In this document: positions 1 to 59,219 of the stretch, piece by piece
Layout of the letters: each line of letters opens with the position of its first letter
How positions within the stretch are numbered: position 1 is the first letter of the stretch
Assembly: GCA_903813345.2 (NCBI GenBank)
Contig: CAIIXF020000004.1
Location: 20,556,477 to 20,620,476, forward strand
Direction of reading: 5' to 3'
DNA length: 64,000 nt
Origin: Owenia fusiformis
Taxonomy: Eukaryota; Annelida; Polychaeta; Sabellida; Oweniidae
The notes under the pieces: model-generated
Told to the model about the DNA's origin: nothing
Seen by the model: the letters and a program-made list of their open reading frames with translations, nothing else
Databases searched by the model: none
Made by a program: the position numbers and the translations under genes

Positions 1-397
1 ACTTGGCTGGCTGTTGACGTTTGAAGCAATTAGGAAGAGCTAGTACGAAGCAGTATAGTTATCAAAATTTATAAACTTATAATATGTCATTCTACCGGTC
101 AAAACCCACTTTGTCCGGAAATATGATTAGTTGAGTCAAGATTAGAGCATCAGAGTATATTTTGGTCAAATTCCAAAGCTTCGACACACCATACATTATC
201 GTTATTGTGATTTGATGACAGAAAATCCAGTCTTAAAAATGATGACATTCATATTCAAGAAACGTTGCGAATTGCGATCTGGTTAACACAGTGAACTGGA
301 AACGCTGTGGTAATCTACTAGATATGTTTAGGAGTTAGCTTTACTATTTTGTCAATAGTTTTATGTTTTAGCACTCATGTAGGCACAACATCATCTA

Positions 398-594
398 CAC
401 AGCCAATATAATTCGACGCCGTTTCGGCATCGAAAAAATTTGGCACTGTTCCGGCACCGTTTCGACACCGTTCCGGCACCGAAACCTTTTGACACCAAAA
501 TTTGTTACCGGACTAGTCAGTCCATTTGGTGCCGAAACGGCACCGAAATTTGGCACCGAAACGGCGTTGAAAATCAGATTACATTTTGGGGGTG
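398..594. mobile_element. 197-bp foldback MITE inserted at a TA
   Basis: The two halves are an imperfect inverted repeat built from ccgtttcggcaccg-type motifs, so the element can fold into a long hairpin. The ends are cacagccaa and the mirror of ttgggggtg, flanked by TA on both sides (396-397 and 595-596). The paralogous site in copy 2 (about 3900-3910) lacks it and reads atctattgtagg. This empty site supports a real insertion after the duplication and a TA target, as for Tc1/mariner-type elements. No coding capacity. Confidence 0.75.
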
Positions 595-2767
595 TATAAT
601 GTAGGCTTAAGTCGACTTGTTGCACGTGTCGCACCACAAGGTTGGGACGTTTCAATCTGCCTAAAGTACAACATGTTTTTGAGAGATAGATCGATTCCGA
701 ACTCTTCTTTGATAATCTGAAAATAATATCGAAACAAAATGGTTAGAGCGTTTCTAAAATTTTGTCCAAAATCGACAGAGCATTTCGAGGAAAACAAGCC
801 ATTTCTCGAGAACAACTAATGGATTTGAAATGGGATTTTAGCAAATGATTTGAGAACATATAAACGAGATTGTGATCTACTACTTTAATATAATTTGTGG
901 CCAATTCGTCAATTCCAGATTCGTTCGATATACACTACAGAGCTTTGATCAAACACATATCAGTTTACTACCAGAAGTTGAATAAATAAGATCTTTGCTC
1001 AAGGTATTGTTCATCGAATGGTACATAATATGTCAACATAACGTATGATATGTAAGAGAAACGAGTGAAACAATACTTACGGTCATATTGGGATCTTCAT
1101 TAGCCCGGCCTTTTTATTTCGCCCCGCAGCGTTTCCGCGTGAATAAAATGCTCCGTCGTGCATGTAAGAGCGTTTGGGTTGGACACCGTAGTATAGCTAG
1201 GATCTAAAAAGACTGGGAAAATCTAAATAACTTTGATAAAAGACCTTTTGAGATAATATACTACAATGGGACCTTTTCCAAGTTTTTGATGAAAAAGTGT
1301 CTTACAGTATACCGAAGAACACGCCTGTTTGATCAACATTTTGGTTAGGCAATTGCCTCTCCTGCCTCGTGGCTCACCGAGGCCACATACTCACTAACAT
1401 ATAATAGTGATTCAATAGCAGTCATGTGATCTTGGGTTTAATTGCAAACTGGGTAATTGTCCCACGTGGTGCTTAAAAGAGGTTGTTAAAGAAAGAAGCG
1501 ACATTTTATTGCTTAACGATGTTTATATTAGTCCCTGTAGGATGGGCGATGTAACGGATAGTATACGGATTAAGAATGAGAAAACATTCGTCAAATGCTC
1601 GGGGGAATTCATTATGAGAGACTAACATGTTGTAGATGAATCTGAAATGAGATAGGACAAGGCATAGTATAGGCATGAGCATTTGTCGAATCTTGTAATT
1701 CTTAAGCATGTTTTTACATTACTGAAACAATTGATCAAAATAGCACGATCACGATACGATATTTAACACTTATTTCTGGGTTTCAATATTGCAAAACTTG
1801 TTTATAAATCTGATATTATGTTTTGTATAAAGACACCTTCCTCACATATTCTTACATTTTTCTGCTGCGTTGTAGCATTATCATTCTTCGGTCTTTCCCG
1901 TTTGGCATTTTGCTGACATTCAAGCTATTACAAACAACCTTTTATTTTTCACGATATGGTTAGGTGATTAAATTAAAGTTGATATTGACAATGATGTATG
2001 GCTTTCCGCAGCTTTATAACATCCGATAAGTTTCCTGCAATTATTGAAGTAATTGTCAGAGTTTTTATTGTCGGAAATTGGAAAATTGAAGGGGAAATGT
2101 GTGTTTGAAGCAGTGGCCGATGTAAGGTGTAAGACAATATTTGGATAACTCCGGAAATCCAATGTTACTCTGAGATTGAAGTGCAATCCATAAACGCCAA
2201 CCTATACGTACAGTGACCAATCGCCCATATAAATGCATTGCATAAATATTTTCCGTTCTCGTTTAGGTTGTGAAAAACATTGCAAGCTTAAACTCCCTAC
2301 TGTATTATATCTATATGAGTTATGCAATGTGAGCCAAAAAGGTAGCCCAAACAAATCTTAATAACTTAGTATACAGAATGAATGACAGGTCATATTGAGC
2401 AAAATTGACATTTGTTTGATGTTCCTCTATTCCTCAAAGATTTCTTGGTCTATTTCCAAATGTCCCGATTTCATGGACATTTTACGAAACATGCTCCAAA
2501 TGTCAAAACATACGAAAATGACCCAATAATGATATGAAACCCAAATCCCAAAAAGTATTTTGAGAAACTTATATAAGATAGACACTACCAGATCCGGGAG
2601 AAATGCGAAATGTGATAAAAATATTGAATGGTAAATTATGGCTGGCGACTTATCAGCGAATTTCATAATATCTGAATAAAGAGTAGTGGCACGATTGGAG
2701 CTGATCATACCCTCAGAGAAGACAGACGTGTACATCATGATCAAACTTAGTCCTACCTTTTAGTGTA

Positions 2768-3067
2768 CTATGGTTTGATTTGTGGTGCAAATACAGTATT
2801 TCTTGGCTGAGGTTCGGTATCATTTGAGGCCTCAATAATTACCTCCACTATCAAGACTAATATCAACCCTCCGACAAGTACACACACACCAACTATAATA
2901 CCAATAAACAGTCGTCGTCTATCCGGTATCGAAAATAAATCATCGATCTCCTCCGTTTTCTCAGAAATTGAAAGTCGTCTGAATTTCCCGCTTCGCATGT
3001 TTTGTCTGATATCCGTCGAACCTGTCTCAGGATTTTTGTGTGAAAACGAAAGTACCTTCGTCGTCAT
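2768..3067 (-). CDS. Small single-pass membrane protein, tandem copy 1 (unrecognised family)
   Basis: Complete 99-residue ORF starting at an ATG. I do not recognise it. A basic N-terminal half (MRSGKFRRLS at about residues 25-34) is followed by an acidic patch and the motif DDLFSIPDRR. Next comes a strongly hydrophobic stretch of about 22 residues (GIIVGVCVLVGGLILVLIV, about residues 57-75), then VEVIIEA and a polar tail ending QIKP. There is no signal peptide. The basic, positive-inside N-terminus suggests a cytosolic N-terminus and a single membrane anchor (inference). The same protein is encoded in copy 2 and, diverged, at 44461-44769 with the same start, core and stop, which supports real coding. 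Upstream exons or introns cannot be excluded; the alignment with the third paralog begins at the same MTT. Confidence 0.7.
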   Translation of the reverse strand: MTTKVLSFSHKNPETGSTDIRQNMRSGKFRRLSISEKTEEIDDLFSIPDRRRLFIGIIVGVCVLVGGLILVLIVEVIIEASNDTEPQPRNTVFAPQIKP

Positions 3068-3635
3068 TACTTAATGTGGTATCGCCTGCGCAGTGTCCAA
3101 GCTTAGTATTCCGGATTTTCGCCCATGTATTCAGTGCTGATCGATTGAGAAACGAGATGAAATATGTCAAGGAAGTAGTTTTAACATCTACGACTTAAAC
3201 AATGTTCATAGTGACTTAATACTCAGATACCGCTTAAGCATGCTAATTGCTTTCGTGGTCGCTGACACAAAACATTACGTTAATTAGATCCCAATTTGAG
3301 ATGATTATGACGAATCATATCAACTATAAGTTCCCAATAAGCAGTTGTTTTGTTCATACTTGTGCTTGTAGCTTTTCTAGATTTTAGTTTGTTGCAGCTA
3401 CAATAATCGAAAGTCTTCCCTATTTTATTTGGCAGATTTATCCTTATTTGTTAATCGCCCTTGAGATAAGTTAAAGATTAAGAGAAAAAATGAACGTCCA
3501 TCATTGAATAGATCTATTTGATGTTTACGCTTGGAGTGATAATATAATTCAAGGAAGCTCTGACACACTCTAGTCTTAATGAATATTCCATAAGCCTGGT
3601 ATTTATAATTTAGTCCCAAGTCTTCTAGGAATTTA

Positions 3636-6266
3636 AAATGTGATTAGTTGAGTCAAGATTAGAGCATCAGAGTATATGTTGGTCAAATTCCAAAGCTTCA
3701 ACACACCATACATTATCGTTATTGTGATTCGATGACCGAAAATCCAGTCTTAAAAATGATGACATTCTCATATTCAAGAAACGCTGCGGTCAGGTTAACA
3801 CAATGAACTGGAAACGCTGTGGTAGTCTAGATATGTTTAGGAGTTAGCTGGACTTTTTTGTCAATAGTTTTATGTTTTAGCACTCATGTAGGCATAACGT
3901 CATCTATTGTAGGCTTAAGTCGGCTTGTTGCACGTGTCGCACCAAAAGGTTGGTAAGTTCTAATTTGCCTAACAAGTACAACACGTTTTTGAAAGACAGA
4001 TAATAGTAATAGTAGTGCTTCAATAGCAGTCATGTGATCTTGGGTTTAATTGCAAACTGGGTAATTATCTCACGTGGTGCTTAAAAGAGGTTGTTAAAGA
4101 AAAAGCGACATTTTATTGCTTAACGATGTTTATATTAGTCCCTGTAGGATGGGCGATGTAACGGATAGTATACGGATTAAGAATGAGAAAACATTCGTCA
4201 AATGCTCAGGGGAATTCATTATGAGAGACTAACATGTTGTAGATGAATCTGAAATGAGATAGGACAAGGCATATTATAGGCATGAGCATTTGTCGAATCT
4301 TGTAATTCTTATGCATGTATTTGTATTACCTAAATAATTGATCAAAATAGCACGATCGCGATACGATATTTTAACACTTATTTCTGGGTTTCAATTCAAT
4401 ATTGCAAAACTTGTTTATAAATCTGATATTATGTTTTGTATAAAGACACCTTCATGACATATTCTAACATTTTTCTGCTGCGTTGTAGCATTATCATTCT
4501 TCGGTCTTTCCCGTTTGGCATTTTGCTGACATTCAAGCTATTACAAACAACCTTTTATTTTTCACGATATGGTTAGGTGATTAAATTAAAGTTGATATTG
4601 ACAATGATGTATGGCTTTCCGCAGCTTTATAACATCCGATAAGTTTCCTGCAATTATTGAGGTAATTGTCAGAGTTTTTATTGTCGGAAATTGGAAAATT
4701 GAAGGGGAAATGTGTGTTTGAAGCAGTGGCCGATGTAAGGTGTAAAACAATATTTGGATAACTCCGGAAATCCAATGTTACGCTGAGATTGAAATGCAAT
4801 CCATAAACGCCAACCTATACGTACAGTGACCAATCGCCCATATAAATGCATCGCATAAATATTTTCCGTTCTCGTTTAGGTTGTGAAAAACATTGCAAGC
4901 TTAAACTCCCTACTGTATTATATCTATATGGGTTATGCAGTGTGAGCCAAAAAGGTAGCCCAAACAAATCTTAATAACTTAGTAATACAGAATGAATGAC
5001 AGATCATATTGAGCAAAATTGAAATTTGTTTGATGTTCCTCTATTCCTCAAAGATTTCTTGGTCTATTTCCAAATGTCCCGATTTCATGGACATTTTACG
5101 AAGCATGCTCCAAATGTCAAAACATACGAAAATGACCCAATAATGATATGAAACCCAAATCCCAAAAAGTATTTTGAGAAACTTATATAAGATAGACACT
5201 ACCAGATCCGGGAGAAATGCGAAATGTGATAACAAATATTGAATGGTAAATTATGGCTGGCGACTTATCAGCGAATTTCATAATATCTGAATAAAGAGTA
5301 GTGGCACGATTGGAGCTGATCATACCCTCAGAGAAGACAGACGTGTACATCATGATCAAACTTAGTCCTACCTTTTAGTGTACTATGGTTTGATTTGTGG
5401 GGCAAATACAGTGTTTCTTGGCTGAGGTTCGGTATCATTTGAGGCCTCAATAATTACCTCCACTATCAAGACTAATATCAACCCTCCGACAAGTACACAC
5501 ACACCAACTATAATACCAATAAACAGTCGTCGTCTATCCGGTATCGAAAATAGATCATCGATCTCCTCCGTTTTCTCAGAAATTGAAAGTCGTCTGAATT
5601 TCCCGCTTCGCATGTTTTGTCTGATATCCGTTGAACCTCTGTCTGGATTTTCGAGTGAAAACGAAAGTACTTTCGTCGTCATTACTTAATGTGGTATCGC
5701 CTGCGCAGTGTCCAAGCTTAGTATTCCGGAATTTCGCCCATGTAATCAGTGCTGATCGATTGAGAAATAAGCCTAAAGGTAGTTCTGAACGAGATGAAAT
5801 ATGTCAAGGAAGTAGTTTTAACATCTACGACTTAAACAATGTTCATAGTGACTTAATACTCAGATACCGCTTAAGCATGCTAATTGCTTTCGTGGTCGCT
5901 GACACAAAACATTGCGTTAATTAGATCCCAATTTGAGATTATTATGACGAATCATATCAACCTATAAGTTCCCAATAAGCAGTTGTTTTGTCAATACTTG
6001 TGCTTGTAGCTTTTCTAGATTTTAGTTTGATGCAGCTACAATAACCGAAAGTCTTCTCTATTTTATTTGGCAGATTTATCCTTATTTGTTAATCGCCCTT
6101 GAGATAAGTTAAAGATTAAGTGAAAAATAGTCCATCATAATAGATATGTTTGATTTTACGCTTGGAGTGATAATATAATTCAAGGTAGCTCTGACACACT
6201 CTAGTCTTAATGAATATTCCATAAGCCTGGTATTTATTATTTAGTCCCAGGTCTTGTAGGAATTTA
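3636..6266. repeat. Tandem segmental duplication, copy 2
   Basis: Second copy of the block at 125-3635, in the same orientation and directly abutting it. It lacks the 398-594 foldback element and the roughly 690-1405 segment of copy 1. Because the foldback site is an uninterrupted empty site here, copy 2 shows the pre-insertion state. It carries the second membrane-protein ORF at 5383-5682. A one-base insertion near 5230 breaks the hydrophobic ORF that is open downstream of the membrane protein in copy 1. Confidence 0.9.
5383..5682 (-). CDS. Small single-pass membrane protein, tandem copy 2 (unrecognised family)
   Basis: 99 residues, nearly identical to the copy at 2768-3067. The differences cluster in the first 17 residues (SLENPDRG replaces SHKNPETG), while the DDLFSIPDRR motif, the transmembrane segment and the QIKP end are unchanged. 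The ORF starts at the same ATG and has no break, unlike the neighbouring downstream ORF, which is frameshifted in this copy. This contrast suggests selection on the membrane protein but not on that neighbour (inference from two copies). Function unknown. Confidence 0.7.
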   Translation of the reverse strand: MTTKVLSFSLENPDRGSTDIRQNMRSGKFRRLSISEKTEEIDDLFSIPDRRRLFIGIIVGVCVLVGGLILVLIVEVIIEASNDTEPQPRNTVFAPQIKP

Positions 6267-10343: not shown

Positions 10344-13300
10344 GGGGACGGCCGACATCGGCTCTCCGTGGGCACTTGGAATGTAAATGGATTCTCAGTT
10401 ACCCAAAATGAAAACTCCGCTTTCAGGAAGACTATTATAAAGAATATGAACTTTGATATTTTATGCCTAAATGAAACATTCCTCCGAGATGAGCAGTTTC
10501 TTAATATTGATGGATACACTTGGATCGGCCATAATCGCAGCACCATTCATAGAAATGCACGCCGGGGATCAGGAGGTGTTGGAGTCCTGATAAAATCTGA
10601 TCTACTAACAGACTTTAAATATGAAGTTCTTGATAAATCAATGCCAGATACTATGTGGATAAAACTAAAATCAATCCACTCCAACTTCAGTGTGGTGATA
10701 TGCGCCTGTTATCTTCCCCCTATATCTAGATGTACGAGAAACAGTGATCCAGAAGCTTTCTTTAACAACTTACTTCAAGGAGTCTATGAGTTTCAAAATG
10801 AGGGTACTCTATGCATTATGGGAGATTTTAATGCACGCATTGGTGACAATAGTGACTATGTTGAAGGTGTTGACACTATCCCCCAACGCTCAACTGTTGA
10901 TTTTACTTTAAACTCATTTGGGGAACACTTTTTAAACTTCCTTGTTGATTCTAGTATTTGTACATTGAATGGCAGACAAGGAATGAATGACTTCACTTGC
11001 ATATCTCATAAAGGACGTTCCATAGTTGACTACATATGTACCCCACATGAGCAATTAAATGGTTTTGAAAATTTCTCGATTTGGAGGCCAACAGATCTAA
11101 TATCAAAGTTTAATCTACCCGCCCCAGCTGCACTACCAGACCATTGTATCCTGAGCTGTGATTTAATTCTTCCTTTGGACTTTGAATGGTATTCACCAAA
11201 TGAAGAACAATGCCCAACTGAAGAAAACTTAAAACACAAAAAATATAGGATAAACAAGGTGCCCGATAACTTTATGTTAGATAATAACCTAATAGCACAA
11301 ATTAATAAAACTTTAGATCGTATCTCAAGAACAAATAATACCACTGAGCGTATCAATTGTATGTACAATGAGTTTGTGTCAGCTATTGACAATGAAATGA
11401 GCAAAGTGTTCCAACCAGTCACAGTGAAGGCCACTGCTAAAAAACCCAAGTCATTCAGAAAGCCATACTGGTGTGATGAACTACAAACACAATGGAATAA
11501 AGTGTCTGCATCTGAATCTGCCTGGCTGAAATGTAAATCCACCCAAAAACGTAACTTGAAAGAACTTTACAAGATAGAACGACGAACCTTTGACAGAATC
11601 CATCGCAGAATAAAGCGACAATTCCAGAAACAAGAACAACAACATCTATTGGATATATACAATGAACCAAATTCTAGGAACTTTTGGGATAAAATTGGAA
11701 AAATTGGCATCGCCTCAGACCGAAAACAGGAAGTTCCTTGGGAAATTTTAAAACCAGACAAAACTGTATCAACAGACAAACAAGAAGTCTTAAATTATTG
11801 GGCCAACTCATACAATGAATTATATTCAGAAAAAGAGGACAATGTCAACTTTGATGAGAATCACTTGAAACAAGTCAAGGAAGAACTCTCCCATATTGAA
11901 AATGATAATGTTGACCCACTAAGTGCACCACTTAATGAGGACATAACCCTACAGGAAGTCATCAATGCAGTTCATCGAGCCAAAATTCGCAAAGCCGTGG
12001 GCATTGACTCAATCCCAGCAGAAGTATTGAAAAACCCAACTTGTATAAATATGTTGTATAAAATTATCATAGAATGCTTTGATAGTGGAATTGTCCCCCA
12101 AAAGTGGATGCAGACCATAATTAATCCAATTTTCAAGGATGGCGACAACCGTGACCCACTTAACTACAGAGCAATCAGCCTAATCTCAGTGCCATGTAAA
12201 ATATACTGTGATATTCTTAACAAGCGCCTTACAAAGTTCCTTGAGAGCAACAACTTATTGGTTGATGAGCAAAATGGATTTCGTGAAAAGCGCAGCTGTT
12301 TAGATCATGCCCACAGCCTCCACTCAATAGTTAATAATCGTAAGTTGGCTAAACTTGAGACATTTGTTTGTTATATCGACGCAACGAAAGCTTTTAGTGG
12401 TCTAAACCGTGATTGTATGTGGCTAAAATTAAACCGCATTGGAGTCAAGGGCAAAATATTCAATGCAATTAAATCATTATATCAGGATGTATCTGGAGCC
12501 ATTCGTGTCAATGGATATTTAACACCCTGGTTTACCATCAGCAAGGGTTCGAAGGAAGGCTGTCTGTTATCTCCAACAATATTTGCGATCTATGTGAATG
12601 ACCTAGCCGCAGAAGTAAAACAATTGAACTGTGGGATAAATATAGACAACACAAATGTCTCAATACTTTTATATGCTGACGATATAGCCCTCATAGCCAG
12701 CTCTGCAGAAGACCTTCAGAGAATGATTGACACTGTAAATACATGGTGCAGGAAGTGGAGAATGAAAATCAACCAGAGAAAGTCCAAAATTGTACATTAT
12801 CGCCCACCTTCAAAACCCCGTAGTAATCATCAATTCAACTGTGGCAACATGGAATTATCATATGCCAGCACCTATAAATACCTTGGTATATGGTTAGATG
12901 AACATATCAATTACAATAAAACTGCAAAAGAAATAGCCAAGTCAGCAAATCGTGCCCTTGGAGTTATAATCTCTAAGTATAAACAGTTAGGTGGCATGGA
13001 TCTCTCAGTGTATAACAAATTGTATGACACCATGGTTCAGCCTATTATTAACTATGGATGCTCAATTGTTGGGCTGTCAGAACATAGCTGTATTAACAAA
13101 GTGCAAAATAGAGCTGGAAAATTTTTCCTGGGTGTTGGAGCAAAGACCAGCAATGAAGCAGTAAGAGGGGATTTAGGCTGGACACAAGCAAAGGATAAAC
13201 AGAAAATTGAATGTGTACGCCACCTTATTAGACTCAGAAACATGAACCCCAACAGATTAAACCATAAGATCTACAAATGGTCTCTAAAAAGACGCTCAAG

Positions 13301-14208
13301 CTGGGATTCCAGAACACAGCACATAATACAACTAGCAGGCCTTGAACAACATTTAGGGACACAAACCCCATGTAAACCCTTCATGGAAAAAATTAGTGAT
13401 TATTTTCAACAAACTGATCCATTTCTTACAAATATTTGGAATGATCAACATAACCTAGTCAATGGTAATAAACTGAGGACATATAGACAGTTCAAGTACG
13501 GAGTAGTAACTGAACATTATAACAACATTTACATGCCAAGACATCATAGGAAAATTCTAGCTAGCTTTAGAACTGGGTCCCTTCAACTTAATGTTGAGAC
13601 ACAAAGGTATAATAACACACCTTTATTGGAAAGGAAGTGTAAACTGTGTGACTCAAATGAAGTTGAAGATGAATTACATTTTCTTGTTAAATGTTCACAT
13701 TATACAGAATTAAGAGACATGTTGTATCAGGAAGCCAAAGTTAAAGTACCTTATTTAAATACTTCAAGTGCCAATCCAACCTTAATTATGATCACATTAC
13801 TACATGCAAAGAACATTCAAAGCTGCCTTGCTGCTACTCTTTACAAAATGTTCTCAAAACGTTTATTTAACCTGGAACGTTTGTGATATTAAATATGTGC
13901 AATATTATCAACCAGTCATAATTACTGTATTCTCATTTATTGCATTTTGAAATCACATGTTTATATTGTATGTTATTTAACTCTAGTCATTTTGTCTGTG
14001 AATTGTTCACACTCTGCAAACTTACTCTACATCCTCTGTGATATTATTCGACATACCGATGTTATATTTTTCTATTGACTATCTTTGTATATTTATATGG
14101 TGTCTCGTAAGCCGATGTCGGCTGTTGGGTTTTTTAATACATGTATTTTACTTGTAATATTTTAGTAAACCTGTGACACAGAAATAAACTATTATTAAAC
14201 TAAAAACT
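9317..14208 (+). mobile_element. Near-complete LINE (ORF1 + EEP endonuclease/RT ORF2) nested in an older LINE
   Basis: The element is flanked by aatat at 9312-9316 and 14209-14213. Removing it and one aatat restores the older LINE's frame exactly (gat gaa tat cat ttt). It carries ORF1 (nucleic-acid-binding, coiled coil), ORF2 (endonuclease and reverse transcriptase), a 3' UTR of about 320 bp, AATAAA at 14183-14188 and a short A-rich tail. The 5' end is probably truncated, because ORF1 is already open at the junction and its first codons come from the target. There is no RNase H domain. Architecture fits the broad CR1/L2/Jockey-like group; the exact clade is undetermined. Confidence 0.93.
10344..13886 (+). 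CDS. LINE ORF2: endonuclease-reverse transcriptase
   Basis: The open frame runs from just after the ORF1 stop to TGA at 13884-13886 (about 1,180 residues). Numbered from 10368, the N-terminal EEP endonuclease shows GTWNVNG (start), CLNETF, IMGDFNARIG (about 149), GRSIVDYIC (about 215) and LPDHCIL (about 256). The reverse transcriptase covers about 540-830, with NPIFKDGDNRDPLNYRAI, CYIDATKAF and catalytic LYADDIAL (about 767). A CxxC...HxxxxC knuckle (CKLCD...HFLVKC, about 1090-1110) lies near the C-terminus. Odd points: motif A reads KAFS where KAFD is usual; motif B reads KEGCLLSP where QG is usual; the first in-frame ATG is at 10446, after the first catalytic motif. Confidence 0.93.
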   Translation, partial: GDGRHRLSVGTWNVNGFSVTQNENSAFRKTIIKNMNFDILCLNETFLRDEQFLNIDGYTWIGHNRSTIHRNARRGSGGVGVLIKSDLLTDFKYEVLDKSMPDTMWIKLKSIHSNFSVVICACYLPPISRCTRNSDPEAFFNNLLQGVYEFQNEGTLCIMGDFNARIGDNSDYVEGVDTIPQRSTVDFTLNSFGEHFLNFLVDSSICTLNGRQGMNDFTCISHKGRSIVDYICTPHEQLNGFENFSIWRPTDLISKFNLPAPAALPDHCILSCDLILPLDFEWYSPNEEQCPTEENLKHKKYRINKVPDNFMLDNNLIAQINKTLDRISRTNNTTERINCMYNEFVSAIDNEMSKVFQPVTVKATAKKPKSFRKPYWCDELQTQWNKVSASESAWLKCKSTQKRNLKELYKIERRTFDRIHRRIKRQFQKQEQQHLLDIYNEPNSRNFWDKIGKIGIASDRKQEVPWEILKPDKTVSTDKQEVLNYWANSYNELYSEKEDNVNFDENHLKQVKEELSHIENDNVDPLSAPLNEDITLQEVINAVHRAKIRKAVGIDSIPAEVLKNPTCINMLYKIIIECFDSGIVPQKWMQTIINPIFKDGDNRDPLNYRAISLISVPCKIYCDILNKRLTKFLESNNLLVDEQNGFREKRSCLDHAHSLHSIVNNRKLAKLETFVCYIDATKAFSGLNRDCMWLKLNRIGVKGKIFNAIKSLYQDVSGAIRVNGYLTPWFTISKGSKEGCLLSPTIFAIYVNDLAAEVKQLNCGINIDNTNVSILLYADDIALIASSAEDLQRMIDTVNTWCRKWRMKINQRKSKIVHYRPPSKPRSNHQFNCGNMELSYASTYKYLGIWLDEHINYNKTAKEIAKSANRALGVIISKYKQLGGMDLSVYNKLYDTMVQPIINYGCSIVGLSEHSCINKVQNRAGKFFLGVGAKTSNEAVRGDLGWTQAKDKQKIECVRHLIRLRNMNPNRLNHKIYKWSLKRRSSWDSRTQHIIQLAGLEQHLGTQTPCKPFMEKISDYFQQTDPFLTNIWNDQHNLVNGNKLRTYRQFKYGVVTEHYNNIYMPRHHRKILASFRTGSLQLNVETQRYNNTPLLERKCKLCDSNEVEDELHFLVKCSHYTELRDMLYQEAKVKVPYLNTSSANPTLIMITLLHAKNIQSCLAATLYKMFSKRLFNLERL

Positions 14209-18391: not shown

Positions 18392-18591
18392 AACCTCCAT
18401 CTTTAGCAGATAAGCATAAGGCTCAATGAGAGTCAATGGCCTAAAATTAGTTACATATATGAGTATAATAAAATAGTGGCGAAGATCTAAAAATATATAT
18501 GAAAACATAACAATTACATGAGTAGTATAATATTTAAGATTTGTGATTTATAACAATAGATACCAATCAAATAGTGAAAGTTTCAGGCAAG

Positions 18592-20694
18592 ATGACCTCA
18601 CAAACAGTGATGGGAGAAAGGAGAAATACGACAACCGGTAGTACAACAGAAAGAACGAGATGTGACCCTACAGGTATCACAGCTGCAGATTCATGGGACA
18701 ATTTACAGCAGAGTGTTACAGAAACAAAAAGTATACAGAATAGAGACACATCAAAGACAAAAAAGATAAGTACTAGTACTAGTAAAACTGCAAAAGAATT
18801 TGTCACCGTTAAGGGTAGTTTAAAGGAACATAGTAGATTTTGGCATAAAATAGAGGCTAACGATACTGTAATTGACATAATTGAAAATGGATATGTTATA
18901 CCTTTAGAACATGAACCAGATAAAATTATTTTGAGAAATAATAGGTCTGCATTGGAGAATGGTATATTCGTAGAAGAAGCAATAGAAAATCTGTTAGCTG
19001 GTGGGTATGTTATAGAACAAGATAATCCTCCATACATTGTGAATCCTTTAACTGTATCAGAAAATGCAAAAGGTAAGAAAAGACTAGTATTGGATCTCAG
19101 GCATGTTAATGAACACGTGGTTTTGAATCATATGAAATATGAAAATATAAATGATGTGATACCATATTTGCAAAAAGGTGGATTGATGTCTGTGTTCGAT
19201 ATCAAAAGTGGTTATCATCATATAAATATTAGGGAATCACAACATAAATACTTGGGTTTCAGTTGGAAGTTTAAAACTGGTATCAGATACTTTACATTCA
19301 CAGTTCTGCCCTTTGGTCTGCGTACAGGAGGATTGGTGTTTTCAAAGGTTCTTAGAGCACTGGTAAAATTTTGGAGGTCCAACAATGTGTGTATTGTTTT
19401 GTATTTAGATGACGGAATTCTAGTCAGTGAACAAAAAGAAAAGGCAATATTACAAGCAGAATTTGTCAGGAAAACATTGGCAATGGCAGGTTTTGTCGAA
19501 AATGTTGAAAAATCAAAATGGTATCCACATAGTTCGGTTACTTGGCTAGGGTTCGAAATAAACTTACAAACATTTGAAATTACAATGCCAAAGTCAAAGA
19601 TACAAGATACTGAGAACATGATTATTGACATTTTGAACAAGAAAGTGAAGGTCACAGCTAGAAGATTAGCAGCAATAGTTGGAAAAGTGATATCAATGAT
19701 AACTGCTATAGGCAATGTTGCAAGGTTGATGACAAGATGCTTATCTGTAGATATCAATGAAGCTCACAGTTGGGACGGCTATATTGAACTGTCAAAAAAT
19801 GCAGAGACAGAACTGAAGTTCTGGGTTAAAAATTTGACTACATTAAATGGCAAGGCCATATCAGAATCTCCAAGAAAAAGGCAATTGGTGTTTTCAGATG
19901 CTAGTGATTCAGGTTGTGGAGGTTATTCGGTAAAATGTGAATCTAAAATTTGTTTCAAAACATTTACAGAAAGTGAAATGAAAATGAGTTCAACGTGGAG
20001 AGAGCTTAAAGGTGTTCTGGTGGTATTAGAATCGTTGTTACATTTATTCACCGGAGAGTCTCTAAAATGGTTCACAGACAACAAAAATGTAGAAATCATT
20101 GTAAATAATGGAAGTTCAAAACCACATTTACAAAGCGTAGCTGTTGAACTGTTCAATATATGTGTGAAGCATAAAGTAGACATTGAAATACAGTGGATTC
20201 CAAGGTCACTCAACGAAAAAGCTGATTTCCTCAGCAAATTAGTAGATTACGATGACTGGGGAATCAAAGAGGTAGTTTTTGACAAATTAGATAAGATTTG
20301 GGGTCCACACACAGTGGATCGTTTTGCAGATTACAACAACAAGAAACTCAATAGATATAATGCTAAGTACTGGAATCCGGGCTGTGAAGCAGTAGATGCA
20401 TTCACACAAAACTGGTGTTCAGATATCAACTGGGTAGTTCCACCAGTAAAGCTGGTAAGAAGTGTAGTCAAACACATGCAATACACAAAAAGTTCAGGTA
20501 CGTTAATAGTTCCAAAATGGCAATCGGCTAGTTTTTGGCCAAATATACACAATGGTACAACATTTCGCCCCTTTGTCAAGCAAGTCCTTGAATACAATGG
20601 TTCAATTCTAAAATCAGGATCACAATTAGAATCAATATTTCAAGAAAACCGTTTCACAGGTACTTTAATTGCATTGAAAATATGTTGCAAGTGA
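18592..20694 (+). CDS. Reverse transcriptase-RNase H polyprotein of the Ngaro/DIRS type
   Basis: 700 residues from the first ATG (18592). RT motifs are LVLDLRHVNEHV (about 165), FDIKSGYHHINI (about 200), VLPFGLRTGG (about 238) and the catalytic YLDDGIL (about 270). The DIRS-type RNase H follows: FSDASDSGCGGY (about 433), WRELKGVLVVLE (about 470), FTDNKN (about 495) and IPRSLNEKADFLSK (about 535). A C-terminal stretch typical of DIRS/Ngaro polyproteins comes next (WGPHTVDRFAD, then PPVKLV and SASFWPN). It copies element RNA into DNA. No frameshift or stop interrupts it. The last 40 residues are less typical and run into the minisatellite. It sits 200 bp after the small ORF, in the same orientation. 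Confidence 0.93.
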   Translation: MTSQTVMGERRNTTTGSTTERTRCDPTGITAADSWDNLQQSVTETKSIQNRDTSKTKKISTSTSKTAKEFVTVKGSLKEHSRFWHKIEANDTVIDIIENGYVIPLEHEPDKIILRNNRSALENGIFVEEAIENLLAGGYVIEQDNPPYIVNPLTVSENAKGKKRLVLDLRHVNEHVVLNHMKYENINDVIPYLQKGGLMSVFDIKSGYHHINIRESQHKYLGFSWKFKTGIRYFTFTVLPFGLRTGGLVFSKVLRALVKFWRSNNVCIVLYLDDGILVSEQKEKAILQAEFVRKTLAMAGFVENVEKSKWYPHSSVTWLGFEINLQTFEITMPKSKIQDTENMIIDILNKKVKVTARRLAAIVGKVISMITAIGNVARLMTRCLSVDINEAHSWDGYIELSKNAETELKFWVKNLTTLNGKAISESPRKRQLVFSDASDSGCGGYSVKCESKICFKTFTESEMKMSSTWRELKGVLVVLESLLHLFTGESLKWFTDNKNVEIIVNNGSSKPHLQSVAVELFNICVKHKVDIEIQWIPRSLNEKADFLSKLVDYDDWGIKEVVFDKLDKIWGPHTVDRFADYNNKKLNRYNAKYWNPGCEAVDAFTQNWCSDINWVVPPVKLVRSVVKHMQYTKSSGTLIVPKWQSASFWPNIHNGTTFRPFVKQVLEYNGSILKSGSQLESIFQENRFTGTLIALKICCK

Positions 20695-26078: not shown

Positions 26079-26199
26079 ATGAAATGATGACTTCATGACT
26101 TCAGTGAGGATGAATGAAATGTCGCATAATTTTGTTGCTTTAGATTGTGATGATGTATTTATGACTTCAGTGAGGATGAATGAAATGTCGCATAATCTT
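26079..26199. repeat. 66-bp satellite, left fragment (about 1.8 units)
   Basis: Contains two copies of gacttcagtgaggatgaatg...gtcgcataat, the unit of the array at 34625-35231. It breaks off exactly at the left end of the 8.4-kb insertion, after ...cataatctt. Confidence 0.9.
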
Positions 26200-34402: not shown

Positions 34403-34624
34403 TATCTTTTTTGTCGGTATCATCGATAATCTTCATATCAAGAAGGGACGAGTTCAAGAGATAATAAGATCTTAGGAAAGAGACAAGTTCACTGATAACA
34501 TTACAACAGCTGAAGGGTGGAATGTTTTTTAACTTTCAAATTTTTTTTTCAAATTTATTTTGGGGGGTGACAAAGGGGGGTGCGGTCGCACCCATCGCAC
34601 CCCCCCCCCCATCTGACGGCCCTG

Positions 34625-35231
34625 ATCTTGTTGTTTTAGATAGCGATGATGTCTTTACGACTTCAGTGGGGATGAATGAAATGTCGCATAATCTTGTTGC
34701 TTTAGATAGCGATGATGTCTTTACGACTTCAGTGAGGATGAATGAAATGTCGCATAATCTTTTTGCTTTGGATTGTGATGATGACCTTATGACTTCAGTG
34801 AGGATGAATGAAATGTCGCATAATCTTGTTGTTTTAGATAGCGATGATGTCTTTATGACTTCAGTGAGGATGAATGAAATGTCGCATAATCTTGTTGCTT
34901 TAGATTGCGATGATGACCTTATGACTTCAGTGAGGATGGAAGAAATGTCGCACAATCTTGTTGCTTTAGATTGTGATGATGACATTACGACTTCAGTGAG
35001 GATGAATGGAATGTCGCATAATCTTGTTGCTTTAGATTGTGATGATTTCTTTACGACTTCAGTGAGGATGAATGAAATGTCGCATAATTTTGTTGCTTTA
35101 GATTGTGATGATGACAATGACTTCAGTGAGGATGAATGAAATGTCGCATAATTTTGTTGCTTTAGATTGTGATGATGTCTTATGACTTCAGTGAGGATGA
35201 ATGAAATGTCGCATAATCTTTTGTTTATAGA
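34625..35231. repeat. 66-bp satellite array (about 9 units)
   Basis: The unit of 66 bp reads gatgatgtctttacgacttc...gttgctttagattgt. It is divisible by three, so both strands stay open (plus-strand 22-residue period with TSVRMNEMSHNL; minus-strand RLCDISFILTEV). Units differ by scattered substitutions. The array is the right-hand continuation of the fragment at 26079-26199. Neither strand has a recognisable protein, and I call it a satellite. Confidence 0.9.
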
Positions 35232-38200
35232 TTGTGACAACATGTTATAATGACTTAAATAGTGCATCGATGCAATGCCATATAGGGAAGGGGTTATTGT
35301 AGAGATTGAACACATCGTTTCTTTGATCGTGCTTAAATCGAATGAATTCATCTCATCGAAAATAGCGGCTGTCGTACCCACCATATGTACAGTATATTGT
35401 TTATTGCATATTAGCATCTCGTTTCGTTATTAAGAGTAGAGATTTGCCGATAAACGGGCAAGTGGTAGGTCTGATCCACTGTAACTCAGGAATCGGGTCT
35501 AAGTCATTACGTAATAAATATTTTCATGAACATAACGAATAATTGGTGGAAAAACCATTGGTGGAAACATACTGTCAAAAGCTGGCAAAAGTACGTAAAT
35601 GCTGCTGCAGAGAGGACTTTAAATTTATAGTGAAAGAAAATACTGAGATTTTTTCTGACCAATCACAAAAATGTTATTTCTACTCACATCTAGTCTTGCA
35701 GTAGTGTAATCTTCTTTCTGTTTTGTTTATATGTTGTATGCTATTTTAGTATATCCGGTAACATTAATTCTTGAAATGTTACCGCGTTCCCTTGGCGATG
35801 ATAAACGAATTACTTTTTAACATTTTCCAAAATATCAATTCCAGGACATTTACACTCAGATCAGAAATTACAGCACCCTTGAGATAGACTCATAACCCAG
35901 GAATAGATAAAGTTCTACATTCCAATAAAGTCTGAAATTATTGACAATATATTCCAAAACGTAAACCGTGGACTTTGGCTAGTACCTACTTGGCTAATTG
36001 CATGGTATGTCTCTATTTATGTTTTTTTATTCAACAGTCAACAAATCAATGGAGTGATAAAAAATAAATCTTAGTACCCCACAATTAGTAACAAACTTTA
36101 AAACTTGTTTTAGACACTTTCTATTTATTGAATCATCATGAAATTTCACATGGACAAACAATCAAATTTTTTTGATTTGCTTGAATTTTGATTTTTAAAT
36201 TTTGATAGACATTTTTAAGATGAAGCTCATTTTATGCTAAAAGGGCAGGTACTTTATTGCAAGCTTTTTAGACAGCTCATTATTTCAGTTCGAATACTTA
36301 TTTGACTACAAAAACAAATGCGTTTGTTTGGCCAATATGTTATCTTCAATAAGAGGCAATAGAATGAAAGTAAAGCTGTTATTAATCCACCTATTATCAC
36401 CAATTTCCCCCAATTATGAGCTAATTTTCACCCAAAATGCAGCATTTTATTTCAATTTTACGACTAAATTGAAATGTACTTATAAGTCACGATTTACCTC
36501 TGAAAAGGAAAGTGAGTCTCCTTGGGATTAGGATAATCCGAAAACAATGGAAATTTTAGGTCAACTATCTGGCTCAAAGGCAACATTTTTTGATACGGTT
36601 AATGTACAAAAAGATTGGGGGATATTACATAATTGATCTCCAAAAAGAAAAAAATAACATATATTATCTATTTGTCCACATGTTAAAAAGGGGATATAAA
36701 AGAACATATTAATATTTTGTTTGACAGGAAATTGAGTGTTGAGAAAATGTTTATCCGTACTAAATCTGTTGGGTGTTTTCTAGATATGTTTAAAATGTAA
36801 TGTAATACCTTTTAGTAATTTCCATATTTATTTTTTCATCGAGCTCCAACATGGCAGAACATTTCACTAATAGTAAAACTGCAATAGTCATTCAGTATTA
36901 TCCATTCCTACTAAAAATGATCTACGCAGCGTGGCTCTAGAAAAAGTGATATCTTTTCAATGGGTGAGTGGTTTACAAAACCCAGATCACGATCATTTCC
37001 TGATATTGCCATTATTGCTTTTCAGAGCCATTAATTTGCTTAGCTTCTTAGATGGGTCAGTGTGTTCCTCAATTATGTCAATACAAGCGATCTCTATGAT
37101 CCCCTTGGCTTCCATTGAGCAATGAAATAGATAGCTTTGCCCATTAATGGCTTTGAGTGGCACTAATTTCTATATCAAAACGACAATTGTGTCTCAGACT
37201 GCCACACGGTGACCTTGTATTCTACGATACGAAAACACGGTGTAATCAATAATCGATGCAGGCATGTAAGCACAATTGTCAAAAGGCAAGGGTGGAACAT
37301 TTAATCGAAAAGCATAACGTAAATACGTGAGCGAAACTGTAAATGTGCGTGACCAGTCCTAAAGGAAATGCATAATACCAAGAGGGAAAACCCCAGAGAG
37401 GACAGACATAATTATTAATTACGTCTCTTGCTTACCACCTTCGTTTGTCAAACTTTTCACCGGCTAGTTTACGAATACAACAGGTCGTTGTGATGTTTTA
37501 ATCGAAGTTAGCACATTTCTTACATATTTCTTCATCTTGAAAGCTATGATATTAAAAGATAAGCCTGAAATCGACATAATGTGTGATTCAAAGCGTGTTT
37601 AGAAAAGTTTGAAACTGCCATTGAATGACGTCATTTGACTGTGGGTTTCGCCAATCAGCGACCATATATCTTCTCAGTAAAAATTTGCATTTTAGACATA
37701 TGTCTTCTCTTCCCCCAAATTACAATCTCTATCAACATGAGAAACCATTGATCAGCCAGAAAGAATCCATCGATAACGTTTATGCCTTATCATAACATAG
37801 CCTCTCATTACAACCGTTTTATTTGAAAACGTGTTCTAACATTAGTTTTACACTAAATGTAAAATTAATAGCGAGATAGAGAGCAATAATAGGCTGCCAC
37901 TAAGCAATTTAGGGTAAATTGGCTAAGCCTTTAATAGAAGTGTTCGTTTTAATCTAATATCAATATAACGTAAACTGTTGAAGTATGCATTCGAGTAAAA
38001 TTGGAACTTATATGGTTTATTTATACATTAACAGTTTGTCAGTGATTAATACATCCAGTGAGTATTACATTTTGATTTCCCTTGAAAATGAATTTCCACA
38101 TTTTTAGTTATATCCAAATATTACCTTGCGTAATAACAGTTACCTTCTACACATCTTTGCACTTAACTATCTAATTTCCGTCAATAAAACTCTAGACGAT

Positions 38201-44007: not shown

Positions 44008-44460
44008 CCTCTTAGTATTGTGTAATAATTTATTTTATTATCCACAATAGCAGCTCATTTAAACATTGTAATTTACATTTTGAATGTTCGATAAATGTAT
44101 TTTGAAATTCAAATTGGTCCGAAAACTCTCAAAAATAAGACGAACATTCGCATGTTCATTTAACATATGCTGCCGTGTTTTAAAACCACAAACTACACGT
44201 ATTATGAGTTATACGTAACTTATGTGTGCAAATTGTGCCAACAAGTGGTTCTGTTAAAACGGGAGCAACGATTTATTAATATGCGGTGATTTGGTTATAC
44301 ATTGTGCACTTGTTCAACATTGAAGCCCTTCATAGGCGATTATCAATTACTCTCTGTAAATTACTTTCAGATAAACCTTCGCCTTCGAGTGCCGCTAATA
44401 GCTGACAGGACCTTCCGGGTTTCAAACATGGGCAGTGCACGCACGACAGCACCTAATGCG

Positions 44461-44769
44461 ATGACGACAATGGTTCCGTCAATCTTACTCGAAACGCCCA
44501 AAACAGACATCAACATAGACGGTTTTGATCACAAAACCCGAAAATCAAAACGACTATCATACGCTGAAAAAAGATTGTCCACAGAGGACAACGATGATTT
44601 ATTCTCAATACCAGATAGACGACAAATTTTTGTTGCAATAATAGTTGGTGTGTGCATACTCGTCGGATTGTTAATTTTAACATTAATTGTAGAGGTGATT
44701 ATAGAGGCCACGAATGATACGGAAACTCAGCTAAGAAGTACGATGTTTACAACACAAATGAAACCCTAA
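44461..44769 (+). CDS. Small single-pass membrane protein, diverged paralog (unrecognised family)
   Basis: 102 residues from the ATG at 44461, chosen because it aligns with the MTT start of the two copies at 2.8 and 5.4 kb. An in-frame ATG at 44428 would add 11 residues. From DDLFSIPDRR to the stop, 43 of 58 residues match those copies. Changes inside the membrane segment are conservative (IIVGVCILVGLLILTLIVEV against IIVGVCVLVGGLILVLIVEV). The N-terminal third is diverged in sequence but similar in charge. It is in opposite orientation to, and about 39 kb from, the tandem pair. Conservation of start, core, C-terminal KP and length despite this divergence supports a real protein. Function unknown. 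Confidence 0.75.
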   Translation: MTTMVPSILLETPKTDINIDGFDHKTRKSKRLSYAEKRLSTEDNDDLFSIPDRRQIFVAIIVGVCILVGLLILTLIVEVIIEATNDTETQLRSTMFTTQMKP

Positions 44770-47584: not shown

Positions 47585-47911
47585 CTATAAAAAGTAAAAC
47601 CAGTACTATTTTGATTGTATTTTTTCGCTATAATATTATTATGGCAATATTAATTGAAATATAATCCTACATTTTTTTATAAAAAAAACTTATTTCAAAT
47701 AATTAAAACATTTGGTTGAGATTTCAGGGACCCATACTACTGCCTCAATGATAGCTTAGCAATATAAGGAATAAACACTTGATGTGTTAGTGTCCCCATT
47801 CGCCTAATGTATACTAAAATTTCTGATTGATTCCAATGGCATATTTTAATTAATTATTAATTTTTCCCTTGAGCGCGCCTATGCCTTCACAAACATTATT
47901 GTTCAACTTAC

Positions 47912-49213
47912 TGCCAAACTAGCTGTAGCTCCTCCAGTTATTTGTAGAGTCACTTTCGGAGTAACTTTGGCACAGACTGCACACCCAGTGGAGCAAGGAT
48001 ACACCTTCACCGTAAAGTGTACACCTGGTTTTATGGTAATACTCAGAGTTAAAGAACCAACGTATATATTGATACCCCATATGTCGATATTCCACTGCCA
48101 ATATTTTGACCACGTTTGCGAGTAAGATGGCACGTTGTACGTCAGTGTATAATCAACATGAGTCTTACTTCCGATCTTTAAGTAAGCTCGTAACTTTAAC
48201 GATGTTCCATATTTGTACTGGTAAAAGTGGGCTGACACGATCGAGAAACTTTTCCCGAGAACATGTGCATCGGCGTAAACCCTTGCAAAGAGCTTCCAAT
48301 TACAATACCGTCTGTCAATTCCTGCGAACGCCCCTGCGTAAAGGTTGGCATTAGCACTACTGACACCGATATAAAAGTGGGCCAAGCAGTGCATGTTGTC
48401 TGGATATCTCAAATTATCTGTTGAAAAATCGGCAGGAGTTTGTATGCTCGTGTACCGGGAGCCATATGGCCCCCATATTGAACAAGAATAGTGGGATAGA
48501 CCGCGTTTCGATTTACCACCAGAGGTCAAAAAGCCTTTGCCTTTGTTATCAGGTTTGTCGCTAAAATACTTAATTATTTCATCATGTATACAATGGAAAT
48601 CTCCGATGTTGTCGTTATATATTTCCTTTAGTCTCAAGTCAAGACTGTTGTATGTCTCTCTTGGCCACGACCCATGTTTGCCTTCGACAATATCGCTACT
48701 TATTTTATCCCTCATGCTCCCAATAACTGTTAGTTTAACGTCACACACGGCATTTTCAATCAAGAACGTGTAGTATTCAATTACACGTTGATCTGAGCAA
48801 ACTTCTGCCAATGCGTGGACTGTTCCCATAACCAACGCGGGTTTATTCGTGCAATCTTTTCCTATTTGAATCATACGATCTATAATCGCCGGATCTGCGA
48901 GGTTTCCAGTGGCTTCTAACACATTAAATACGCTATCATCAGCTTGACAGTTGTCCTTGTTTATATTCGCTACTTTGTCGAGCATTGATTTAGTTATCGT
49001 CGCTCGCAATTCTTCACTAACAGATCCTTCGCCGGCTAATGCAGTCATTGTAAACATTAAGGTCACTTTCACTTCCTCTGAACGTTCCTCTTGATACTTC
49101 TTCCTGACAGCGTTCACTAATGATTCGCTGGGATTTCTCATTGAGGTTAACATTGACAGGAATTCATTGACGTTTTTATCAGAAAGTTTCATCATCAACA
49201 TTGCTTTGATCAT
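47912..49213 (-). CDS. Lipid transfer protein exon 7 (helical superhelix plus unusual C-terminal region)
   Basis: 434 codons between acceptor attgtag and donor gtaagt. The first Met is internal, since the frame joins exon 6 (AGEK-MIKAML). Residues about 1-215 are paired amphipathic helices as in the vitellogenin-N superhelix (LSDKNVNEFLSML, VFNVLEATGNLADPAIIDRM, ALVMGTVHALAEVCSDQRVI). From about residue 235 a different region begins after a Gly/Lys-rich linker (KGKGFLTSGGKSKRG). It is rich in Tyr, Trp and Ser (HYSCSIWGPYGSRYTS, RRYCNWKLFARVYADAHVLG, SYSQTWSKYWQWNIDIWGIN), with short alternating hydrophobic stretches that suggest beta-sheet and an ending of CSTGCAVCAKV. I do not recognise that region as a known vitellogenin domain. 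Confidence 0.88.
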
Positions 49214-57883: not shown

Positions 57884-59219
57884 TTGAAGACCCATCAGAA
57901 CAAAGCAATCAAAGATCATGTACATGTTGTCCACCTAAAACACATGGTGATTCCTTTTCCCTTTTTTCAGGAAGGCCAATTAAATCATGTCAGACTCTGC
58001 ATTTCCTGCCACTCTTCCAACATAGTCAAGAATCCAAATCCAAAATCATGTGACCTCTTCTATCAACGACTTAAAGTACGTGTACAACACGGAGATTCAA
58101 AATGCATTGAAATCAATGATAAACTGTCAAACCAAAGAGATAACGAGAACAAAAATGTGTCATGGTGCCGTGGCTGCTATAGTGAAGTAGTGAACATCAA
58201 TAAACTAAAAAGATTTGAAGACAAGTACAACAAAAAACAAGAAAATCTAGCCAAAATATCAACCAGTCAACAGTCAGTGCCAGCACTTGAAACAAGTGCC
58301 AGTGTTTATCTGAGATCCTCAAATAAGACTAAAGCAGGGAGAGGAGAAGCATGTATTTTTTGCTCAAAATCTGGGAAAAAGTTAAGAAGGGCTGGTGAAG
58401 ATGTCAGGAAATATTTGACAAAAATTGCTAAGTCAAATTCAGAATGGTCAGTGAGGCTACAGAGCAAAAACATAGTATACCACCTTGCCTGTTATGTTCA
58501 ACACCAAAGGTCAGTGTCCTCTCATAAAGGAGGCAAAGATGATGTCCAAAGAGCATTTTTGCAATCAGTACGAAGTAAACTTGACCAAAGTAGTTCATCT
58601 GAGAACAGCATTGACATGTCCTCAGTTGAGGAAATATATTCCGATGAAATTCGGAAACATGGAATTGATGATATTCAACAACCTCACAGAAAAACAATAA
58701 AACTCTTGCTCAAGGGGAGTTTCAATGACATTGAATTCACTAGGCCAAAGCAGCTTAATAAATCAGAATTGGTGGTCCTCCCAAATTCCAACACACGCAC
58801 TGGATACAATTAAAGAGACAGCAGACATAGTTCGCAGTGATATTTTACTATCGAGATCTGATTGGAAATTTCAAGGCTCACTGCAGCAAAACAACATTCC
58901 TCAATCACTAAGAAACCTTATCAGTCTACTCCTCTATGGTGATATTGGCAGTAGGGAAGGAAATGGTGCCTCTTCTGAAGTAATGGTGAAGACACTATGC
59001 AACCAAATCATATATTCAGTACAATCTCCAATACAGTCTAAAAAGTTTTACCAATGTCAGAATGAATTTCTATTTTTAGGCCTCTTTCTGTGCTTACAGG
59101 TCTGGTTGCTATGGAAACCATTGCAACCAGAAACAGTTTTCCAATTACTGATGTGTCCATATCTGAATTTCTTAACCAAAGACATCATTGAAACAAATAT
59201 AGTAAAATTAGCACAGTAA
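57884..59219 (+). pseudogene. Broken gene with zinc-finger-like cysteine pairs, inside the 8.9-kb transposon
   Basis: Two overlapping frames, 57884-58813 and 58725-59219, appear to be one gene with a frameshift around 58750-58800. Features of the first frame are CISCHSSN (about residue 39), WCRGCYSE (about 94), CIFCSKSGKK (about 157) and NIVYHLACYVQ (about 196). The CxxC...HxxxC spacing suggests zinc binding. The second frame gives ADIVRSDILL, then SDWKFQGSLQ and LRNLISLLLYGD. I recall this domain arrangement in lineage-expanded invertebrate proteins of unknown function but cannot name a family. It is the only coding candidate in the transposon, so a role in transposition is possible. No DDE/DDD motif is visible. 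No ATG marks the start. Confidence 0.6.

Follow-up and report, generated by a model that had tools for sequence, protein, structure and literature searches.

A probable local family of four small single-pass membrane protein genes in the annelid Owenia fusiformis

For a stretch of 64,000 nucleotides from the genome of Owenia fusiformis (contig CAIIXF020000004.1, positions 20,556,477 to 20,620,476; here called the window), a reading of the sequence alone pointed to three short open reading frames (ORFs), which were proposed to be copies of an undescribed family of membrane proteins. This raises the question whether these ORFs are genes, where such genes would begin and end, and what kind of protein they would encode. 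Here, the comparison of the copies suggests a local family of four paralogues, each with a single coding exon for a membrane protein of ~100 residues spanning the membrane once. A probability of roughly 0.6 is assigned to this reading.

Four copies, their history and the constraint on their reading frame

All three ORFs proposed for the window are real, and a fourth copy was found to the left of it (Table 1). Copies 2 and 3 translate as claimed. The ORF of copy 1 had been given without a strand; it lies on the minus strand, where it translates to 99 aa, the plus strand being interrupted by stops. The four copies are all intact, none of them containing an internal stop, and all are located inside 54 kb on one contig.

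Table 1. Positions of the four copies and of the features around them (window numbering, except for copy 4)
Feature	Position	Strand	Description
Copy 1	2768-3067	minus	99-aa ORF MTT...IKP, stop TAG
Copy 2	5383-5682	minus	99-aa ORF, stop TAG; 95/99 residues identical to copy 1
Copy 3	44461-44769	plus	102-aa ORF, stop TAA; 113 aa from the in-frame ATG at 44428
Copy 4	G000:C4:20547328-20547636	minus	Outside the window, 9 kb to the left; stop TGA; coding match 20547331-20547636
Left unit of the tandem duplication	119..3635		~398-596 and 692-1400 unmatched in the right unit; abuts the right unit
Right unit of the tandem duplication	3636..6266		Abuts the left unit
Conserved 5' flank of copy 1 (-70..-1)	3068..3137	minus	22-nt deletion relative to copy 2 further up
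Putative 5'-UTR part of the copy 3 coding exon	44371..44460	plus	After acceptor-like TTACTTTCAG ending at 44370; holds the in-frame ATG 44428; putative splice site
Matching 90 bp of copy 2	5683..5772	minus	After acceptor-like TACCTTTAG, AG at 5773-5774; putative splice site

A protein search of the animal's own genome (498 Mb, 525 contigs; E<=0.01, five candidates scored) returned four matches, which are copies 1-4. No fifth copy was found in this genome at E<=10, neither with the whole of copy 4 nor with the C-terminal 61 residues of copies 1/2 as query, the same four being returned each time (four of four candidates); this search scores the best candidates only, and weakly similar paralogues may escape it. 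A profile of the four copies, run against a region of 199 kb surrounding the cluster (frames of 40 residues or more), revealed no further convincing member. The weak hmmsearch rows in this region (E >=0.025) stem from the copies read antisense or in a shifted frame, or from scattered frames, and were taken as chance, as was the frame near 398-742 (E 0.33), to which the following candidate belongs. Positions 380-556 (minus) were considered as a decayed fifth copy, with tblastn E-values of 0.016 and 0.020 to copies 1/2, a FSMPKRRR motif and one internal stop. This candidate was dropped by judgement: it lies mostly in ~398-596, a stretch without match in the duplicate unit, a GGCACC-type tandem repeat is present at 442-481, and the match is broken by the stop.

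Copies 1 and 2 sit in a head-to-tail duplication, in which 1401-3635 and 4009-6266 are 95.9% identical over 2266 aligned columns. The two differ at 10 of 300 sites in the coding sequence (CDS) and at 45 of 1927 sites in the flank; in this pair the CDS is no better conserved than its surroundings, which counts against the gene reading. Copies 3 and 4 have in common a three-residue insertion relative to copies 1/2 and agree at 76/102 residues; between the pairs {1,2} and {3,4}, 58-59/99 residues are identical. The dS values amount to ~0.09 (1/2), 0.37-0.49 (3/4) and 0.90-1.73 (between the pairs). Based on the insertion, the identities and dS, we infer one old duplication, followed by one younger duplication in each branch. 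Between copies 1 and 2 (3000-3067 vs 5615-5682), seven of the ten CDS differences fall into the N-terminal 41 codons, six of them within ~25 bases, and in the alignment copy 2 matches copies 3 and 4 at several of these positions.

Selection on the reading frame was studied by dN/dS (NG86, ML and YN00), with the 58 codons from DDLFS to the end defined as core. In the core, dN/dS ranges from 0 (1/2, the pair for which YN00 failed) to 0.23 over the six pairs, which is well below 1 and speaks against a non-gene reading; for the whole ORF it is 0.16-0.48. The N-terminal 41-44 codons yield scattered values of 0.26-1.33; for five of the six pairs, YN00 failed here. In a re-placement test, the observed base changes were redistributed at random among sites sharing their starting base (20,000 draws). 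Here, fewer amino-acid changes were observed in the core than expected: 15 vs 24.4 (1/3), 12 vs 23.2 (1/4), 15 vs 25.9 (2/3), 12 vs 24.2 (2/4) and 8 vs 16.0 (3/4, P 0.00005), with P<=0.0001 in all of these five pairs. The sixth pair, 1/2, is too close for a firm test, its 3 nucleotide changes causing 0 amino-acid changes where 1.8 were expected (P 0.06). In the N-terminal 41-44 codons, P lies between 0.014 and 0.31 over the six pairs, which indicates little constraint. The chance of a whole ORF staying free of stops was ~0.03 in each of the four between-branch pairs, 0.06 for 3/4 and 0.80 for 1/2.

The stop codons listed in Table 1 all stand at the same position, and the homology ends there: between the branches, the similarity at +1..+100 and +101..+300 is at shuffle level in all three pairs compared. 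The dN/dS of the core, the re-placement result, three different stop codons at one place and homology ending at the stop together argue that the ORFs are very probably protein-coding. The proposal of a small real gene family is thereby supported, with purifying selection on the core and the full length kept. Homologs outside this locus were not found within the own genome, which the sequence-only reading had named, in combination with a dN/dS near 1 and a lack of transcripts, as speaking against a gene; the core values are well below 1.

That reading had also considered that a known transposon might include the ORFs. Decayed remnants of a mobile element, or sequence carried along with one, would be in line with the several reverse-transcriptase frames and short repeats nearby, as well as with the recent duplication that holds copies 1/2. 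However, only four occurrences of the coding DNA were found, on one contig and within 54 kb (repeat counts being lower bounds), and the core of the ORFs is under purifying selection. This is unlike the short dispersed element at ~2400-2545 beside copy 1, for which at least 39 further rows were found elsewhere in the genome (40 of 97 candidates scored). A mobile origin is accordingly regarded as very improbable and host genes as the preferred reading.

Several other frames are present in the surroundings. At 10368-13883, a LINE-like frame matches endonuclease and reverse transcriptase, and a second frame, at 18574-20691, matches reverse transcriptase and RNase H. At 34539-35417 (minus), a 293-residue frame includes 9.3 units of a 66-bp tandem repeat (34625-35237); it has a Pfam CCHC zinc finger row with E 9.8e-14 for the whole protein, with no single stretch passing, and DNA similar to this region is found at 26084-26199. 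Two frames that overlap each other, 309 and 164 residues long (57884-59216), follow shortly after a 650-bp ATCAT-type repeat and gave no Pfam match at E<=0.1. Furthermore, a family of ~430-residue frames is present in at least three mutually similar copies: 47906-49213 (minus) in the window, and G000:C4:20660775-20662124 and 20679251-20680474 (plus), the last of which extends to the limit of the sequence analysed. The window copy matches Vitellogenin_N weakly (E 0.16) and the other copy scanned does not; these frames are possibly exons of a lipid-transfer-like gene. Three frames similar to each other (L008, L010 and L012), which begin ~11 kb to the left of copy 4 and continue outward, give, by eye, the impression of organic-cation-type transporters; for one of them, a Pfam scan at E<=5 gave no match.

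Edges of the putative coding exon

On the upstream side, the homology reaches ~170 bp. For -70..-1, none of 300 shuffles was as good in three of the five pairs, and 10/300 (3/1) and 7/300 (3/2) were in the others. For -170..-71, the similarity is clear in 4/3 (0/300) and 4/2 (1/300) and unclear in 4/1 (29/300), 3/1 (82/300) and 3/2 (65/300). Beyond -171, none of the five pairs displays similarity above shuffles. The upstream block contains TACTTTCAG in copies 3 and 4, aligned to TACCTTTAG in copy 2, 83-90 nt ahead of the ATG of MTT. This conserved acceptor-like site makes it likely that the coding exon follows a 5'-UTR intron; the site could instead be part of a promoter. In copy 1, a 22-nt deletion relative to copy 2, above the -70 flank, removes the aligned site.

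The start codon itself differs in its options between the branches. Copies 3 and 4 carry an in-frame ATG 11 codons above MTT (MGSARTTAPNA- and MDNTQTTPPIV-), in what we take to be good context; in copies 1 and 2, TTG replaces this ATG and an in-frame TAA is present ahead of MTT. Since 7 of the 11 upstream codons differ between copies 3 and 4 (4 being identical) and all 7 alter the residue, we regard MTT as the start shared by the whole family; copies 3 and 4 may also use the longer form. Expression of copy 1 may be poor, because this copy has lost the upstream ATG as well as the acceptor-like site.

An acceptor-like site upstream would also fit a longer membrane protein of which the ORF is the final exon and in which the ATG is incidental, and the frame of copy 3 is indeed open for 57 codons upstream. 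On the contrary, in copies 2 and 4 this site is separated from MTT by in-frame stops, copy 1 has a stop just ahead of MTT and no such site, and MTT is invariant in all four copies. A longer protein is therefore improbable, and the single coding exon starting at MTT is retained as the preferred reading.

The predicted protein and its relatives

On protein level, MTT, R31-x-S33, D42-D43, FSIPD, IIVGVC, LVG, LIVEVIIEA, NDTE and KP are invariant in the alignment of all four copies, as is C62, in addition to R31 and S33 (copy 2 numbering). From the motifs originally proposed as common, the MTT start, VEVIIEA and the terminal KP hold in every copy, and DDLFSIPDRR is altered to DDIFSIPDKR in copy 4. 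The identity reported for copies 1 and 3, 43 of 58 residues over the core, is exact. The N-terminal ~40 residues evolve fast, whereas the juxtamembrane segment, the helix and the C-tail are slow. This tail, (S/T)NDTExQxRxTxFxxQ(I/M)KP, follows the helix end IIEA; its NDT sequon is probably too near the membrane for glycosylation.

A conserved tail behind the helix would also be expected from a membrane-anchored propeptide, which releases its C-terminal ~20 residues as a secreted peptide. Against this, the tail has no dibasic pair in the alignment and ends in KP with no amidation signal, and the hydrophobic segment is not N-terminal, so that a propeptide appears improbable and a membrane protein retaining its tail is preferred.

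The claim of one membrane segment is supported by hydropathy in all four copies, each of which has one hydrophobic segment (Kyte-Doolittle maximum of 3.1-3.2 over 19 residues), and by the predicted helix of copy 2. For the latter, AlphaFold2 with the four-row alignment places helices at 38-44 and 48-83. Block means are 89, 95 and 88 for residues 51-80 and below 50 for residues 1-37; the model has a mean pLDDT of 61.4 and a pTM of 0.31, its confidence being low except in the main helix. The net charge is -1 in the 15 residues ahead of the segment and -3 to -4 in the 15 after it. Following the positive-inside rule, this charge difference modestly favors a cytosolic N-terminus, with the C-terminal ~25 residues probably outside or in the lumen. 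Since the difference is modest, the topology could also be reversed.

Searches for relatives gave no significant row in Pfam-A (hmmscan, all four members, E<=10). The weak rows, whose scores, where given, lie under the gathering cut-offs, were CwsA (0.053), SHR3 (0.098), TMEM171 (0.15), CSG2 (0.25), Syndecan (0.31) and DUF6724 (4.7). No convincing match was present in NCBIfam (best E 0.014, fa_ox_alpha_mit, one of four members) or PHROGs (best E 0.071, one of four members), and a PDB profile search returned one row, integrin beta-8, with E 2. Integrin beta-8, Syndecan, CwsA and KdpA were rejected as relatives, as these rows look like membrane-helix matches. In viral contigs, none of 76 pattern matches was confirmed and hence no virus-derived relative was found there; in bacterial and archaeal genomes, none of 144 was confirmed. 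The family was not found among the literature matches listed, which is not proof of unpublished status. Within the scope of Pfam, NCBIfam, PHROGs, PDB, viral contigs and prokaryotic genomes, nothing contradicts the label "undescribed", which is a possible one. The family is probably lineage-restricted; it is possibly new, but of an ordinary kind, namely lineage-restricted small membrane proteins.

Nevertheless, a distant member of phospholamban/sarcolamban, FXYD, KCNE, Hemotin/Stannin or similar, beyond the reach of profiles, has to be weighed. The size, the one helix and the basic R-x-S on the presumed cytosolic side resemble the phospholamban type. None of these families is among the six Pfam-A families obtained at E<=10, a search in which HMMER filters drop most weak matches. 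Membership in a known small family is considered unlikely, and a separate local family remains the preferred reading.

Proposed role and comparison with known small membrane proteins

If these proteins are made, an accessory or regulatory subunit would be the most likely role, a proposal that is tentative. The conservation pattern, with slow segment, helix and C-tail and a fast N-tail, suggests that juxtamembrane DD(L/I)FSIPD(R/K)R, the helix (IIVGVC, LVG) and the C-tail would together engage one partner, most probably a further membrane protein, and that the small protein would thereby act as such a subunit. The fast-evolving N-tail with its invariant R-x-S might serve as a modifiable cytosolic lead. 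The family would have been born within the lineage and expanded by duplication at one place. A further, highly improbable reading is that of single-helix regulators born in this lineage and switchable by phosphorylation, which would act on a membrane transporter, perhaps one encoded by the nearby repeated transporter-like frames, and would have expanded beside this target.

Small lineage-restricted membrane proteins are easily overlooked by gene predictors. The set of four copies, with its selection pattern, conserved 5' block and fast N-tail, represents a defined case for studies on gene origin and partner finding; otherwise, it would be one among many orphan families.

KCNE channel accessory subunits have a single coding exon, ~100-130 aa and one helix, with the N-terminus outside and a long cytosolic C-tail. 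The family resembles them in its single coding exon, size and one helix, and in the accessory role proposed here. It differs in lacking a KCNE Pfam match and in the orientation and long cytosolic C-tail of KCNE. The SERCA regulators phospholamban and sarcolamban have a cytosolic N-part with a basic R-x-S site ahead of a single helix. Here, too, a basic R-x-S on the presumed cytosolic side precedes the single helix; in contrast, the chain of the family is about twice as long and has a conserved tail past the membrane. A phospholamban-type profile, which the Pfam library presumably includes, was not among the families at E<=10 for the four members. The same holds true for the Stannin family, which we likewise take to be part of this library and which is absent from the rows listed at this threshold.

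Hemotin of Drosophila and Stannin of vertebrates are described as hydrophobic membrane peptides of 88 aa encoded by small ORFs, with an N-terminal helix and a C-terminal cytosolic helix (PMC4807881). The likeness is that both they and the present family are short single-helix membrane proteins from small genes (PMC4807881). In the family from O. fusiformis, however, with no helix predicted past residue 83 of 99, the membrane helix stands behind a lead of ~50 residues and is followed by another ~25.
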